A DNA stretch of 11,161 nucleotides, taken from the NCBI GenBank assembly GCA_030652715.1, contig JAUSQB010000295.1, forward strand, positions 1 through 11,161, in the 5' to 3' direction. The translations under genes were made by a program, and so were the position numbers. Numbering within the stretch: position 1 is the stretch's first letter; every line of letters starts with the position of its first letter. Positions 1,173 through 9,246 of this stretch are shown here, piece by piece. Below the pieces are notes generated by a model, which did no database searches, had not been told where the DNA came from, and was given only the letters and a program-made list of their open reading frames with translations. Source of the DNA: Rugosibacter sp. Lineage in GTDB: Bacteria; Pseudomonadota; Gammaproteobacteria; Burkholderiales; Rhodocyclaceae.

Positions 1173-1390
1173 TTATATGCGCTGCACCGGGAGGGTATGT
1201 GCTGCACGCCGTATCACCAGCGCCGACTTTTCGGCCAGGCAGCGCTTGCCATATAAAAGACGCGGCGTTTAATCCAACCAACATAAGCATGTTCAGCGCG
1301 GATGCTGTATTGTTTCACCCGTAACTTGTTGCGCACCTGATCGAGTAGTTTTAGCGGCGAGATGGTTTCAGGTGTGCTTGAAGGTGTCAT
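1173..1390 (-). pseudogene. intI: Integron integrase intI, N-terminal remnant, frameshifted and truncated
   Basis: Starting at the ATG at 1390, the first ~45 residues read as an integron tyrosine recombinase N-terminus. SPLKLLDQVRNKLR is followed by YSIRAEHAYVGWIKR, matching the IntI pattern LDQ(L/V)R...YS.RTE.AYV.W(V/I)(K/R). After WIKR the frame breaks: the original frame runs to a stop near 1214. IntI-like sequence resumes in another frame as YGKRCLAEKSALVIRRAAHTLPVQ, comparable to GKRHPAEMGA..V...L.HLAVQ, and stops at 1173. None of the catalytic R-H-R-Y core is present, against about 320 residues in intact IntI, so the enzyme is dead. Orientation, opposite to the cassettes and next to attI, is canonical for integrons. 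A 28-bp dispersed repeat copy lies in the degenerate part (about 1206-1233) and may have contributed to the damage. The chosen start could differ, because the same frame is open up to 1495. Confidence 0.8.
1206..1233 (-). repeat. 28-bp dispersed repeat, copy A, in intI remnant
   Basis: The reverse complement matches copy B at about 25 of 28 positions. It lies where the integrase frame is degenerate. Part of the similarity could be coincidental, because GCCGAAA is also expected from intI codons there. Confidence 0.55.
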
Positions 1391-2688: not shown

Positions 2689-2869
2689 GCCCAACCCGGC
2701 AGTCCACACGGACGCTGCGCGATAAAGCCGCGCAGCGCCGGTGACTTCTACGTTGAGGCTGTAGAAAAACCCTTAACTCACTCATTTATTCATTTAAAAT
2801 TATCTACAAATCAATTGGTTACGAGAAAAATTTTCTCTTGAAATCACTTTTTCTACAGCCTCGTTAAGC
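2689..2869 (+). other. attC: attC1 of cassette 1, interrupted by a 108-bp element
   Basis: The R'' box GCCCAAC (2689-2695) fits RYYYAAC. The central hairpin has a perfect 9-bp stem, CGCTGCGCG (2713-2721) with CGCGCAGCG (2729-2737), and a 7-base loop. The R' box is split: GTT at 2752-2754 and again GTT at 2863-2865, where GTTAAGC (2863-2869) fits GTTRRRY perfectly. Removing the 108-bp insert and one GTT restores a continuous attC of about 70 bp. The insert's left end makes GTTGAGG, which keeps six of the seven R' positions. Confidence 0.75.
2755..2862. mobile_element. 108-bp MITE-like element inserted in the attC1 core
   Basis: Bounded by perfect 15-bp terminal inverted repeats, GAGGCTGTAGAAAAA at 2755-2769 and its reverse complement at 2848-2862. 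It is flanked by GTT on both sides (2752-2754, 2863-2865), consistent with a 3-bp target duplication. The interior is AT-rich, non-coding and includes a 15-base palindrome around GAGAAAAATTTTCTC (2823-2837). No transposase fits, so it would be non-autonomous. The same ends occur at 3642-3801 in the next attC. I cannot assign a parent IS family from the ends alone. Confidence 0.72.
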
Positions 2870-2882
2870 CCAGAGGCACTTT

Positions 2883-3569
2883 ATGGCAGATGTGAGCACC
2901 CAGCACAATCTAGACTTGGCGCACCATGTTCGCCAAGGAGCCGCGTGGCTGTCTGCGAGCGCCGAAGGCGAGAACACTGCTGCGCTATCGTATGCGGCAT
3001 TTGAGTTTCGCTTCGCAGTCGAGCGGTTGGCAGTGCACTACTGGGCTGGCCTGCTCAATCGAAAACCCGAAGAGAACGACTTGCGCGATATTGAGTCCTT
3101 CAAGCGAGTCGAGCGCCGGATTTACGAACTCGTTGGACATCAAAAGGAAATAGATGGTCACTTCGAGTTCATGCGTATCGTCCTTGGTGCCATGAAAATT
3201 GATATGTCTTTTCACACCCCAAAGATTGGTGATCTCTCGAAGTATTGGCACGAATGCAGCGAGCTATGCCACATTGCTTGGCCGTTGTCGTGCTCGGTGT
3301 CGGAAGTGAGGAAGATCGCGTTCGCCAATCTCATCGAAATTTCACAGTCGCTTTCGGCGCATGTCAGCAGCCTCGGCTGGCCAGTCCTCAAAGATGCCGC
3401 GTTTACCGAGCTTCGGGATAAATTCATAGCAGGTAAAGTGTCGGCCAGCGACGTACTCGCACATGTTCAACAAACTGGTCTTTGGGCGCGTGCCGAGTAC
3501 CCGGATGGGCGGCCATCGCAGTTTGTCGGCGAGCCAGTTGCGCCAAGCATATTGGGTAGCGCAACATGA
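2883..3569 (+). CDS. Cassette 2 gene: unknown 228-residue protein
   Basis: Single gene of cassette 2. It starts 20 bases after the GTTAAGC core and is preceded by AGAGG (2872-2876). The predicted protein is soluble and mostly helical: no signal peptide and no TM span. The N-terminal half carries AALSYAAFEFRFAVERLAVHY (roughly residues 33-53) and RDIESFKRVERRIYELVGHQ (about 68-87). These are amphipathic helices of the sort seen in HEPN/AbiV-like and other helical defence or stress proteins, but I see no clear Rx4-6H catalytic motif, so no function is assigned. The C-terminal ~60 residues (LRDKFIAGKVSASDVLAHV onward) are less structured near the end. The stop lies 13 bases before the R'' box of attC2, a spacing typical of integron cassettes. 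Codon use and length support a real gene. Confidence 0.7.
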   Translation: MADVSTQHNLDLAHHVRQGAAWLSASAEGENTAALSYAAFEFRFAVERLAVHYWAGLLNRKPEENDLRDIESFKRVERRIYELVGHQKEIDGHFEFMRIVLGAMKIDMSFHTPKIGDLSKYWHECSELCHIAWPLSCSVSEVRKIAFANLIEISQSLSAHVSSLGWPVLKDAAFTELRDKFIAGKVSASDVLAHVQQTGLWARAEYPDGRPSQFVGEPVAPSILGSAT

Positions 3570-3582
3570 TCTCCGGGTCTGG

Positions 3583-3808
3583 GTCTAACCTGTCAGTCGA
3601 GAGGGACTGCGCAAAAGCGCGCAGCCCCTCACTTTTACATTGAGGCTGTAGAAAAACCCATTTCGGAAAAATCGGGATCATCATGAACAAAAAACCGACC
3701 TCTCAGAACGCGCTGTGTTGGCCGATCTCCATCCGAGGAAGGATCAAGTGACCCCCGTAATTGGGGTTGTGCAACTCCTCAACTAGTTTCTCTACAGCCT
3801 CGTTGGGC
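3583..3808 (+). other. attC: attC2 of cassette 2, interrupted by a 160-bp element
   Basis: The R'' box GTCTAAC (3583-3589) fits RYYYAAC. The hairpin GAGGGACTGCGC (3601-3612) with GCGCAGCCCCTC (3619-3630) is 12 bp with one mismatch and a 6-base AAAAGC loop. R' is split: ATT at 3639-3641 left of the insert and GTTGGGC at 3802-3808 right of it. Without the insert the site would be about 66 bp with good R boxes. Confidence 0.75.
3642..3801. mobile_element. 160-bp MITE-like element inserted in the attC2 core
   Basis: The left end GAGGCTGTAGAAAAACCC (3642-3659) is identical over 18 bases to the left end of the 108-bp element. The right end CTCTACAGCCTC (to 3801) matches the inverted terminus with one change within 15 bases (GAGGCTGTAGAGAAA). 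Flanks are ATT (3639-3641) and GTT (3802-3804), so a 3-bp duplication would need one later mutation. The interior is unrelated to the 108-bp copy; it has a short ACCCC/GGGGT hairpin near 3752-3768 and only a 23-codon frame from 3683, so no transposase is present. Confidence 0.68.
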
Positions 3809-3834: not shown

Positions 3835-3863
3835 TTGCAACATTTACGGCATTGCCGTATAGT
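3835..3863 (+). promoter_or_regulatory. Promoter of the toxin-antitoxin cassette
   Basis: TTGCAA (3835-3840) and TATAGT (3858-3863) are separated by exactly 17 bases, 4/6 and 5/6 to consensus. The expected +1 is at about 3869-3870, which is the toxin ATG itself, so the message would be leaderless or nearly so. It lies inside cassette 3, so the module does not depend on the integron promoter. Confidence 0.65.
3845..3859. promoter_or_regulatory. Palindromic operator of the toxin-antitoxin cassette
   Basis: TACGGC-ATT-GCCGTA is a perfect 6+6 inverted repeat that fills the spacer between the -35 and -10 and overlaps the -10. A dyad there is the expected binding site for the Xre antitoxin or the toxin-antitoxin complex, giving autorepression (inference from family behaviour). 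Confidence 0.6.
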
Positions 3864-3869
3864 TCGCTT

Positions 3870-4184
3870 ATGCGAACAGTTGCCGAAACTCCAGTTTTTG
3901 AACGGTATGCCGCTGATATTTGGTCAGACTCAGAGCGTCAAGATCTAATCAACTGGATTGCAGCAAATCCAGAATCGGGTGACATCATTCGTGGAAGTGG
4001 AGGTTGTCGCAAGGTTCGCTGGTCTGCTCCCGGCAAAGGCAAACGAGGCGGTGCTCGTGTTATTTACTTCATCGCTGCCGATCAAACAGTCTGGTTGCTG
4101 ATTGCTTACAAAAAGGCCGCTTTCGATAATCTGCCCACATCATTCCTTACCACGCTAAAACAAGGAGTAGAAAATGCCCACTGA
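3870..4184 (+). CDS. RelE/HigB-type toxin (cassette 3)
   Basis: 104-residue toxin of a type II toxin-antitoxin module. RelE-superfamily members cleave mRNA, usually on the ribosome. The diagnostic stretch is residues 42-67: GSGGCRKVRW, then a glycine/lysine loop APGKGKRGGARVIYF, then a beta segment VWLLIAYKKA at 74-83 and a helical C-terminus. This is the signature of the RelE-like branch starting MRTVAETPVF, usually paired with a downstream Xre protein. The ATG at 3870 is chosen: the frame is open from a TTG at 3852, but that codon lies inside the operator and upstream of the predicted transcription start. No Shine-Dalgarno precedes the ATG, consistent with a leaderless message. The gene overlaps the antitoxin by 11 bases. 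Toxin-first order is the HigBA-style arrangement. Activity is inferred from family. Confidence 0.87.
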   Translation: MRTVAETPVFERYAADIWSDSERQDLINWIAANPESGDIIRGSGGCRKVRWSAPGKGKRGGARVIYFIAADQTVWLLIAYKKAAFDNLPTSFLTTLKQGVENAH

Positions 4185-4455
4185 AATTGAAAAGTTCCAA
4201 AATGATTTGCTGTCGTCGGTTAAACAAATGAAACGTGGTCAAGCGGCGCGAGTTACCAAAGTTAAATTGACACCCGCAACTGAAGCGCGTACCCGCATGG
4301 GGCTATCGCAGCATGATTTCGCATCCCTGCTTGGCATTTCATCTCGCACCCTGCAAGATTGGGAGCAAGGTCGAAGAGAACCGACGGGAGCGGCAAAAAC
4401 CCTGCTACGGGTTGCTGTTTCACACCCTGATGTATTGCGCGAACTCCAAGCGTGA
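4174..4455 (+). CDS. Xre/HigA-type antitoxin (cassette 3)
   Basis: 93-residue DNA-binding antitoxin. Residues 42-66 form a helix-turn-helix of the Xre/Cro type: MGLSQHDFASLLGIS followed by the recognition segment SRTLQDWEQGRREPTG. The first ~35 residues (EIEKFQNDLLSSVKQM...) are helical and are the likely toxin-contact region. It is expected to bind and neutralise the partner encoded just upstream and to repress the operon through the palindrome at 3845-3859. AAGGAG lies 6 bases ahead of the ATG, giving it a strong ribosome binding site, unlike the toxin. That asymmetry would favour antitoxin excess. The TGA at 4453-4455 is one base from attC3, making a very compact cassette. Confidence 0.88.
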   Translation: MPTEIEKFQNDLLSSVKQMKRGQAARVTKVKLTPATEARTRMGLSQHDFASLLGISSRTLQDWEQGRREPTGAAKTLLRVAVSHPDVLRELQA

Positions 4456-4456
4456 T

Positions 4457-4517
4457 GCCCAACCCATCATTTCATCTGACCGCGCAAAAGCGCGGCAGGT
4501 GAAATGATGGGTTGGGC
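4457..4517 (+). other. attC: attC3 of cassette 3, intact
   Basis: 61-bp site from GCCCAAC (RYYYAAC, 4457-4463) to GTTGGGC (GTTRRRY, 4511-4517). The outer 18 bases pair perfectly with the last 18. An inner stem around CCGCGC-AAAA-GCGCGG follows, with an unpaired A in the left arm, comparable to the extrahelical bases that direct integrase to the bottom strand. It is the cleanest attC in the window and the last one seen. Confidence 0.88.
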
Positions 4518-4524
4518 ACCTCAG

Positions 4525-4552
4525 TCGCCGTCTCGCCAGCGCCGACTTTTCG
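4525..4552 (-). repeat. 28-bp dispersed repeat, copy C
   Basis: Exact reverse complement of 2627-2654 over 28 bases, beginning 7 bases after attC3. It is in the same orientation as the copy in the intI remnant, so near-identical direct repeats bracket the cassette array. Confidence 0.8.
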
Positions 4553-4998: not shown

Positions 4999-5493
4999 CT
5001 AGTCGAAATAACTCCGCGCTTCTTCAAACCGCGGGGCGAACCAGCCTTTGGCCAGGCTGTCGATTCTGACTTTGCCTTTGCTGCTTGGCGCGTGAATGAA
5101 GCGGCCTTCACCGATGTAGATGCCAACGTGTGAGTGAGACCTGTTCATGGTGTTGAAAAATACCAGGTCGCCGGGCTGGATATAGGCGATGTCCACTGCA
5201 CGACCGCGACGTGCGATGTCGGCAGCAGAGCCTTGCAGTTTTAGGCTGGCTGATTGATCAAAAACATAGCTGACCATGCCGCTGCAATCCAGCCCGGCTT
5301 CGGGGTTTTTGCCGCCGAAGCGATAGCCAGTGTTGATCAGTCCGAGCGAAAACAGCACGATTTCGTTGGCTTTTTCAAGCGCGGCGGCGGAGCGCGCCGT
5401 CTCGCCATAGCCGACTTTTTGAGGCGTGCTGCCGCACGCTGCAAGTAGCAGTACACAAGGTATTATCAGCAGGATGAGTCGGAACGAGCGCAT
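4999..5493 (-). CDS. NlpC/P60 family lipoprotein, probable peptidoglycan endopeptidase
   Basis: 164-residue lipoprotein expected to cut peptide cross-links or stems in the periplasm. The signal MRSFRLILLIIPCVLLLAAC ends in a lipobox with the lipidated Cys at residue 20. The NlpC/P60 domain covers about residues 40-160: YRFGGKNPEAGLDCSG with the catalytic Cys70, SHSHVGIYIG with the catalytic His122, and RFIHAPSSKG with His134 as the third polar residue. The short length resembles Spr/MepS-type enzymes. The start is uncertain: the same frame has ATGs at 5529 and 5505, but 5493 gives a compact signal peptide and follows AGGACA. A copy of the 28-bp dispersed repeat encodes residues about 25-34 (QKVGYGETAR), a stretch between lipid anchor and domain that tolerates insertion. 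Last gene of the minus-strand run, 60 bases after clsB. Confidence 0.88.
   Translation of the reverse strand: MRSFRLILLIIPCVLLLAACGSTPQKVGYGETARSAAALEKANEIVLFSLGLINTGYRFGGKNPEAGLDCSGMVSYVFDQSASLKLQGSAADIARRGRAVDIAYIQPGDLVFFNTMNRSHSHVGIYIGEGRFIHAPSSKGKVRIDSLAKGWFAPRFEEARSYFD
5394..5421 (-). repeat. 28-bp dispersed repeat, copy D, inside the NlpC/P60 gene
   Basis: The reverse complement matches copy B at about 24 of 28 positions. It is in frame within the NlpC/P60 lipoprotein, where it encodes QKVGYGETAR just after the lipidated cysteine. Confidence 0.5.
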
Positions 5494-8133: not shown

Positions 8134-8161
8134 GCAGAAAGTCGGCGCTCATGACACGGCG
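8134..8161 (+). repeat. 28-bp dispersed repeat, weak copy E, at nadA 3' end
   Basis: Matches copy B at about 22 of 28 positions and spans the nadA stop codon (8149-8151). The most degenerate copy and the least certain member. Confidence 0.35.
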
Positions 8162-9246
8162 AGCATGCGCTCCAGCGCGATCCTGGCCAGTACGGCTTCG
8201 TGTTCGGGCACCTTGATTTGATTGACGACTTTGCCCGCTACCAGATTTTCCAGCGTCCAGGCCAGGTGTTGCGGGTCGATGCGCTGCATGGTGGAGCACA
8301 TGCATATCGTGCTGGCCATGAACTGCACGATCTTGCCCTCATCTTTAACCTCGCGCGCCAGCCGCTCGACCAGATTCAGTTCGGTGCCGACCAGCCAGCG
8401 CGTATTGGGCGGGCCTTCCTTGACAGTTTTGAGAATATATTCGGTGCTGCCAATATAGTCGGACTGTTTGCATACTTCAAAGCTGCATTCGGGATGCGAG
8501 ATGACAATGCCATCCGGGTACTGGTTGCGAAACTTGATGATGTCGCTTGGCTGGAACATTTGATGCACAGAACAGAAGCCGTGCCAGAGGATGATTTTTG
8601 CCTTGCTGATTTGCTCACGCGTGAGGCCGCCTTGTTCAAGGTCGGGATTCCAGATCACCATTTCATCGAGCGGGATGTTCATCTTGTATCCGCTCCAGCG
8701 ACCCAGGTGCTGATCGGGAAAGAACAGCACTTTTTCACGCTGGTTAAACGACCATTCAAGAATCCTGGGTGCGTTGGATGAGGTGCATACAATGCCGCCA
8801 TGCGTGCCGCAAAAAGCCTTGAGATCGGCGGCCGAGTTGATGTAGGTAACGGGCGTGATCTTTTCGTCGGGATTCATCAAGGCCGACAATTCGCGCCAGC
8901 AGCGTTCTACCTTGGCCAGGCTTGCCATGTCGGCCATGGAGCAGCCAGCGGCGAGATCAGGCAGAATCGAAATTTGTTCCGGCCGCGAGAGAATATCGGC
9001 GACTTCGGCCATGAAGTGCACACCACAGAAGATGATGTTTTCTGCGTCCGACTGCCCGGCCAGGCGCGAGAGCTTGAGCGAGTCGCCCGTGAGATCGGCA
9101 TGTTCATACACATCGGCGCGCTGGTAGTGGTGGCACAGCAGGACGGCTTTTTTGCCGAGGGCAGCTTTGGCGGCGCGAATGCGCTCGCCCGCTTCTTTAT
9201 CGGCCAGCGCGTTGAAGCGATCAAATTGTATGGTGGCAGTTTGCAT
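8149..9246 (-). CDS. nadA: Quinolinate synthase
   Basis: 365-residue [4Fe-4S] enzyme that condenses iminoaspartate with dihydroxyacetone phosphate to quinolinate in de novo NAD synthesis. The three cluster cysteines are visible: C102 in AAGCSMADM, C225 in LWHGFCSVHQ, and C317 in TICMCSTMQ (C315 is nearby). Other landmarks are LLCHHYQRADVYEHADLTGDSL (34-55), FCGVHFMAE (73-81), FFPDQHLGR (175-183) and HPECSFEV (251-258). A longer frame extends to 9459, but that overlaps the rhodanese gene; the ATG at 9246, ten bases after the rhodanese stop, is the natural start. The ribosome binding site is weak. The 3' end coincides with a degenerate copy of the dispersed repeat. nadB and nadC are not in the window. 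Confidence 0.95.
   Translation of the reverse strand: MQTATIQFDRFNALADKEAGERIRAAKAALGKKAVLLCHHYQRADVYEHADLTGDSLKLSRLAGQSDAENIIFCGVHFMAEVADILSRPEQISILPDLAAGCSMADMASLAKVERCWRELSALMNPDEKITPVTYINSAADLKAFCGTHGGIVCTSSNAPRILEWSFNQREKVLFFPDQHLGRWSGYKMNIPLDEMVIWNPDLEQGGLTREQISKAKIILWHGFCSVHQMFQPSDIIKFRNQYPDGIVISHPECSFEVCKQSDYIGSTEYILKTVKEGPPNTRWLVGTELNLVERLAREVKDEGKIVQFMASTICMCSTMQRIDPQHLAWTLENLVAGKVVNQIKVPEHEAVLARIALERMLAVS

Follow-up and report, generated by a model that had tools for sequence, protein, structure and literature searches.

Why do two different small inserts with the same ends lie in two adjacent attC sites? The question is raised by a stretch of 11,161 bp (the window), which is a whole contig of a 2.1-Mb MAG that is 82% complete. 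A sequence-only reading had described inserts of 108 and 160 bp with the same ends, the flanks GTT/GTT and ATT/GTT, and unrelated interiors, and all of these features are borne out by the sequence. We refer to the two inserts as MITE A and MITE B (Table 1). The repeat GAGGCTGTAGAAAAA is present four times in the window (three exact copies and one with one mismatch), arranged as two inverted pairs. Shuffled sequences gave an expectation of 0.03 occurrences, so chance is ruled out as the source of these repeats. The interiors of MITE A and MITE B are unrelated (z = −0.1 forward, 0.4 reverse). No Rfam family was found in the window at the gathering threshold. A promoter in the MITEs was rejected, as the search gave two matches in 1.3 kb against 0.8 expected, with a 9-of-12 match in the 108-bp insert.

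Table 1. Features of the two inserts and of the array around them, in window coordinates.
Feature	Position	Strand	Details
MITE A, 108 bp	2755..2862	+	TIRs 2755-2769 (+) and 2848-2862 (−)
MITE B, 160 bp	3642..3801	+	TIRs 3642-3656 (+) and 3787-3801 (−), one mismatch
GTT on the left of MITE A, one copy of the 3-bp target duplication	2752..2754	+	Right copy 2863-2865
ATT, left flank of MITE B	3639..3641	+	Read as mutated GTT; right copy GTT 3802-3804
attC1 body, R'' GCCCAAC to GTT core	2689..2754	+	R' resumes past the insert: GTTAAGC 2863-2869
attC2 body, R'' GTCTAAC onward	3583..3641	+	R' resumes past the insert: GTTGGGC 3802-3808
attC3, intact, array end	4457..4517	+	R1 12.7 bits; inverted repeat of 23 nt, 4456-4478/4496-4518
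Cassette ORF, 228 aa, no Pfam match	2883..3569	+	Begins 21 bp past MITE A
Cassette with RelE-like and HTH ORFs, past MITE B	3852..4455	+	RelE-like below Pfam cut-off
Probable relic of integron integrase gene, first ~30 residues only	1259..1348	−	TIGR02249 positions 1-30; reads away from the array

Covariance models were used to recognise attC sites, because a first hand-made arm score set sites apart from controls only modestly (15 of 58 sites scored higher than 95% of the 1,339 control sites; p-value = 4 × 10−16 by Mann-Whitney). The R1 model was built from 16 interrupted sites picked from 38 with clear arms. The R2 model was built from 31 of 59 intact attC sites, which were drawn from the 66 best of 111 R1 matches. 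R2 thus does not depend on the insertion sites, whereas it does depend on R1, since its training sites were found with the interrupted-site model. We found that the attC pairing covaries on the 31 intact sites (score 0.311 against 0.161 shuffled), and that paired cells make up 74% in these sites against 33–46% in six slid controls. Covariation and model matches show that the host sites have the R'', L'', L', R' pairing with extrahelical bases that characterises attC. When attC1 of the window is emptied of its insert, it folds on both strands (z = −2.9 bottom, −3.1 top), so folding energy cannot name the strand. The GTT core is unpaired in its predicted minimum-energy folds.

The inserts are located in a small cassette array at about 1.5–4.5 kb of the window. 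Both host sites had been read as attC, and this is confirmed by R2 matches at both and by homologous attC sites for the second. The attC1 match (2689–2758, 31.8 bits, E = 0.0005 in a 450-kb search) ends at the insert, and L088 holds an intact homologue that is 98% identical. The attC2 match (3583–3645) also ends at its insert and reaches only 18.5 bits (E = 0.5, 450-kb search); its homologues in L335–L339 are attC sites with 87–93% identity over 55–57 bases. The R1 match of attC3 is weak (E = 0.47 in an unfiltered search of the window alone), and attC3 is absent among the R2 matches at E ≤ 10. The RelE-like and HTH reading frames of the cassette past MITE B form a toxin-antitoxin-like pair.

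The minus-strand frame near the array was the sole match in the window to the integron integrase model TIGR02249 (19.6 bits, E = 6.6 × 10−4), in a search that also gives matches below the cut-off in 14 of 14 control genomes. It is a probable remnant of an integron integrase gene, and the remainder of intI beyond the first ~30 residues is absent from the window. Because this frame weakly matches the start of the integrase model, the window is probably a relic integron. A single 344-aa frame on contig C35 gives, in two pieces, the best TIGR02249 matches of the MAG (63.6 and 34.1 bits against a cut-off of 265); this frame is taken for another tyrosine recombinase. A one-ended relic of the element family, GAAGCTGTAGAAAAA, lies on contig C456 (L014) of the same MAG at 3077–3091 (−), at the R' core of another attC site (3088–3163, −). 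Other attC sites of the MAG's genus also bear element ends (L343, and L345 with one end found). Five copies of a different repeat of 25–31 nt (about CGCCGTCTCGCCAGCGCCGACTTTTCG) are spread over both strands, near the array and farther away (1207–1233, 2627–2657, 4522–4552, 5395–5421 and 8138–8162); this is possibly a dispersed REP-like repeat.

We scanned genome contigs for exact copies of GTTGAGGCTGTAGAAAAA, which is GTT plus the repeat, and obtained at least 117 stretches, about seven of which are expected by chance according to an arithmetic estimate. A viral scan for TT plus the repeat gave 46 stretches, with paired ends in two. Pairings of ends were kept if they did not overlap one another, had at most three mismatches and spanned under 2.2 kb. 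This rule kept 58 elements, namely 56 from 51 of the 163 fetched stretches and the two of the window; the other 112 stretches gave no pair. A looser rule (at most four mismatches, overlap allowed) gave 119 pairings. Among the 68 unpaired genome stretches, 36 break off no more than 310 bp from the repeat and may therefore lack the partner end; a group of 36, not identical to the former, has an R2 match ending at the selected GTT (compared by hand). Some of the remaining unpaired stretches are surely chance matches.

The element sizes form two clusters, at about 100–180 bp and about 1.6–1.85 kb. The right flank is GTT in 57 of the 58 elements (the exception is L042), and the scans had selected the left flank only. 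In the first set, R2 matched at the 5' junction of 33 of 62 elements and at none of the other 29. Seven loci that were found via the transposase, with flanks ignored (L188–L194), have GTT/AAC flanks at every locatable end. In 398 genomes of the phylum, no two exact ends lie 110–140 bases apart. At L018, an element of 313 bp (2107–2419) encloses another element bounded by inverted repeats, whose ends differ (about GAGGCTGTCGGACTATCC) and which is apparently a different MITE.

The sequence-only reading had proposed a search for a full-length insertion sequence with these ends, and the elements of the longer cluster, which have an IS1182-family transposase, answer this description. Three long elements encode a transposase of 512–523 aa with the Pfam domains DUF772 and DDE_Tnp_1_6. 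The IS1182 model NF033551 matches all three (E = 1 × 10−73 to 2 × 10−81), with 274, 265 and 249 bits against a cut-off of 270, so that one is above the cut-off and the others are 5 and 21 bits under it. D142, D311 and E476 are invariant in the three proteins and presumably form the catalytic triad. No DEDD transposase of the IS110/IS1111 family was detected in these three proteins, for which NCBIfam ranks IS1182 first, followed only by weak IS5 and IS1634 models.

In a tree of 31 proteins, computed with long-branch warnings, the 26 transposases of the attC-element family are split from five other IS1182 transposases with 100/100 support. Identity within the family goes down to 37%, and the five others have 23–26% identity to the proteins of L063 and L090. 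The ends of these outgroup elements are similar to GAGGCTGTAGAAAAA (for example, GAGGCTGTGTGAAAA in L328), and two of the five copies (L325, L329) have palindromic flanks, as read by eye. The transposase type, the related TIRs and the palindromic or hairpin targets, which some members are reported to use (here attC in 56 of 60 elements), all agree with membership of the IS1182 family.

A full-length element was not found in the window's own incomplete MAG, and we therefore infer the helper transposase from other genomes. In the phylum sample, only 4 of 398 genomes have a close transposase. Among plasmids, the transposase has matches in 1,511 of 72,556 records, and none of them reaches 60% identity; three of the 40 plasmid matches listed are at 42% identity and the rest at ≤26%. 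No transposase was confirmed in a viral scan.

To avoid selection on flanks, we surveyed one genus, in which the exact repeat is present in 58 of 124 genomes and the transposase (E ≤ 1 × 10−60) in 43. From the matches listed, 60 regions were taken, favouring paired ends and full transposase matches. From 54 of these regions came 60 elements, which were all oriented to make their flanks read GTT. Six unpaired regions were left uncounted (L266, L287, L309, L310, L311 and L314); the flank seen in them is GTT in five and ATT in L314. We found that the left flank is GTT in 59 of the 60 elements (TTT in L283) and the right flank is GTT in all 60 (GTTA 56, GTTG 3, GTTC 1). In 43 elements, an R2 match ends no more than 4 bases from where it is expected at the left (5') junction. 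Another 13 sites were judged by eye to be attC, with R'' recognisable in seven of them and degenerate in six, so that attC hosts 56 of the 60 elements. Among the four others, L271 is cut by the contig end, L296 lies behind another copy, and L257 and L258 are in ordinary genes. The L296 element is a 187-bp derivative directly behind a full-length element, with one GTT shared.

The concentration in attC R' boxes, which the sequence-only reading had named as a check, is thus seen across the surveys. The many copies away from attC that would have spoken against it amount to 2 of 60. Its proposal of an attC-seeking family in miniature form gains support, since the insertions of full-length relatives are concentrated in these boxes. 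Because L257 and L258 interrupt ordinary reading frames without attC, attC is not an absolute requirement. Both are in one genome (G474), which has only three R2 matches, and our guess is that insertions spill over to non-attC sites when attC is scarce.

What the transposase recognises can be considered from the flanks. The target might be only a short double-stranded motif contained in attC (about GCGTTR), with the elements and the enzyme otherwise the same; we consider this rather unlikely, while giving it real weight. The flanks share C at −4 (115 of 119), G at −3 (117 of 119) and A or G after the right GTT (118 of 119), where the pooled flanks, like the 77 transposase directions below, include loci present in both sets and are not all independent. 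At both non-attC sites, too, GGCGTT precedes the insert and the right GTT is followed by A or G. This preference, C-GTT and then GTT-R, is as clear as the folded-attC reading. However, seven genomes contain 16,927 GGCGTTR sites against 267 R2 matches at E ≤ 10, a count from 150 scored candidates per genome in which attC may be undercounted and some weak matches may be false. Of the 24 paired elements fetched from these genomes, 22 lie in attC, 15 of them by model and 7 by eye, and the other two lie elsewhere, so the motif alone falls short by several-hundred-fold. In addition, R'' on the opposite strand also reads GTTRRRY, yet the R' side is used, because 116 of the 117 other attC matches in the loci, counted per element, lie on the same strand as the site with the insert; the bases before the core differ at R''. 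We infer that the enzyme may read attC through its folded hairpin together with GTT, and not simply as a short run of bases. Such recognition is plausible because IS1272, of the same family, has been reported to replace hairpins.

The elements also have a preferred orientation. Among the elements over 400 bp, 77 of 78 match the transposase, and its direction is the GTT direction in 73 of the 77 (the exceptions are L067, L088, L098 and L194). The insertion spot in the GTT core coincides with the G/TT crossover of IntI. This coincidence and the orientation bias could be explained if the inserts, which would then begin with TT and end with G, were tiny gene cassettes moved by the integron integrase. 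We regard this as very improbable. At the 3' (right) end, the R2 model finds attC in none of the elements (0 of 62 and 0 of 60), which rules out cassettes with their own attC. The terminal repeats are common to an element that encodes an IS1182 transposase, and the two insertions in ordinary genes and the four inverted elements also argue against integrase.

Empty sites show what the insertion did to its target. For L257, the flanks joined at one GTT are matched in 11 congeners along their full 124 bases, at 98–100% identity. Matches to the joined flanks of L258 occur in 34 of 124 genomes and mostly span 122 bases free of gaps, at 80–93% identity, and G474 itself carries an uninterrupted paralogue of this site. 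Intact homologues of attC1 read CTACGTT (L088, L338, L344) or CCACGTT (L336) before the next cassette. Those of attC2 in L335–L339 read TTTTACGTT or TTCTACGTT, with CGTT in all seven that align over 55–57 bases (three in L335 and one each in L336–L339). Since intact homologues carry a single GTT, the target is one GTT that is duplicated on insertion; since the seven sites read CGTT, the ATT left of MITE B reflects a later G-to-A change. The earlier description, in which R' is split right after its TT, was correct in placing the inserts in the R' core. Their position is now refined to between two copies of GTT, a 3-bp duplication that by sequence alone is indistinguishable from a cassette-like insertion between G and TT.

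MITE B has moved, because a copy of 159 bp with 92% identity sits in a different attC, with different downstream sequence, in the congener L343. It belongs to a family of eight elements of 156–160 bp at six loci, including other genera. Elements were clustered as read forward, and in reverse none of the other short elements aligned to MITE B (best z = 2.3). The interior of MITE A has no clear relative in the element set (best z = 3.4). The alternative raised by the sequence-only reading, in which one element was copied with its attC and its interior was replaced later, would fit the adjacent sites, the same ends and the alignment of the two junction regions (repeat family D3), but is next to inconceivable, because the host attC sites are different from each other and separate intact homologues exist for each, and for the 160-bp copy it is rejected by an interior that comes from an independent family and is found in another attC.

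MITEs of bacterial insertion sequences are short and non-coding, with terminal repeats of an insertion sequence, a target duplication and many copies. The inserts are likewise short and non-coding, and have the ends of an autonomous element and a target duplication. Unlike MITEs in general, the elements examined here are mostly in attC R' boxes. Pieces of transposase sequence were read by eye inside the elements of L296 (187 bp) and L097 (232 bp), which resemble internal-deletion derivatives. A cluster of 13 MITEs of 164–176 bp from Marinobacter and Zhongshania has a conserved non-coding interior (L016, L047, L071, L101, L275, L279, L284, L288, L289, L312 and L313, where L016 and L275 are seemingly the same locus retrieved twice). 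In reverse, two elements outside this cluster align to it near the threshold (z = 5.9 and 5.6), so its orientation is provisional. We detected no convincing conserved RNA inside the MITEs: alignments of two families back the terminal repeats and contain few compensatory pairs inside (one of the structure alignments has eight sequences, seven from the 13-member family and one from another cluster).

Comparisons of the ends, the transposase family, the sites, the single GTT when empty, the orientation and the movement of MITE B make it very likely that the inserts are MITEs mobilised in trans by an IS1182-family clade that targets integron attC. An IS1182-family enzyme with an acquired attC preference would carry out DDE transposition. 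Its transposase, with DUF772 and DDE_Tnp_1_6, would act on the GAGGCTGTAGAAAAA ends and join them around the GTT core of the R' box, which would give the 3-bp GTT duplication, and the element would be inserted nearly always in one orientation relative to attC. The MITEs would use the same ends with transposase supplied in trans, as their shared ends and sites suggest.

After insertion, the left half-site reads GTTGAGG, which has six of the seven letters of GTTRRRY, and the hairpin is kept. The integrase may therefore still be able to use the upstream attC, and the element may be carried along as leader of the cassette that follows. A split attC can still score well (35.2 bits at L071). We put forward, tentatively and with more doubt than belief, the fuller proposal that the folded single-stranded attC is read as by IntI, with insertion at its crossover, and that GAGG mimics RRRY, so that the split attC would still be a substrate and the element, as leader of the next cassette, would have two systems of mobility.

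Other mobile elements are known to use attC. Group IIC-attC introns are ribozyme retroelements without terminal inverted repeats. The IS1111-attC group was reportedly described by Tetu and Holmes in 2008 and by Post and Hall in 2009. According to PMC7923331, group IIC-attC introns use the attC hairpin as a target. The present clade resembles them as a mobile element that targets this hairpin, but has terminal inverted repeats and is not a ribozyme retroelement. PMC11187229, PMC12444791 and PMC11089894 describe IS1111-attC elements as insertion sequences that target attC, and PMC11187229 states that IS1111 uses a DEDD transposase and a seekRNA. Our elements are also attC-targeting insertion sequences; unlike IS1111-attC, they have a DDE transposase, terminal repeats and MITE derivatives.

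IS1272/TnSha1 of the IS1182 family has been reported, in PMC5678879 and PMC4923244, to replace varied hairpins without target duplication or sequence specificity. The attC clade shares with it the DDE transposase family, similar terminal repeats and inverted-repeat or hairpin targets. Unlike IS1272 as described there, it uses one fixed place in attC, with a 3-bp GTT duplication and a preferred orientation. IS3/IS911 copies inside cassettes are named in PMC11023631, and many IS5 and IS3 transposases in cassette arrays were counted in PMC11089894. In the literature searched, which did not extend to ISfinder, so that an existing name is possible, we found no report of IS1182-type elements or MITEs that target attC. 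IS1111-attC elements and hairpin-targeting IS1182 members are thus known, and an attC-specialised IS1182 lineage was not found described.

The clade adds a third, unrelated kind of attC-specialised mobile element, and is the only DDE one that we have come across. It is common in one genus and rare across the phylum sample. It may explain some of the gene-less inserts of 100–180 bp in cassette arrays. It also provides a testable example of a transposase that may recognise a site able to fold, and the contrast between the attC clade and the other IS1182 elements bears on how target choice evolves.
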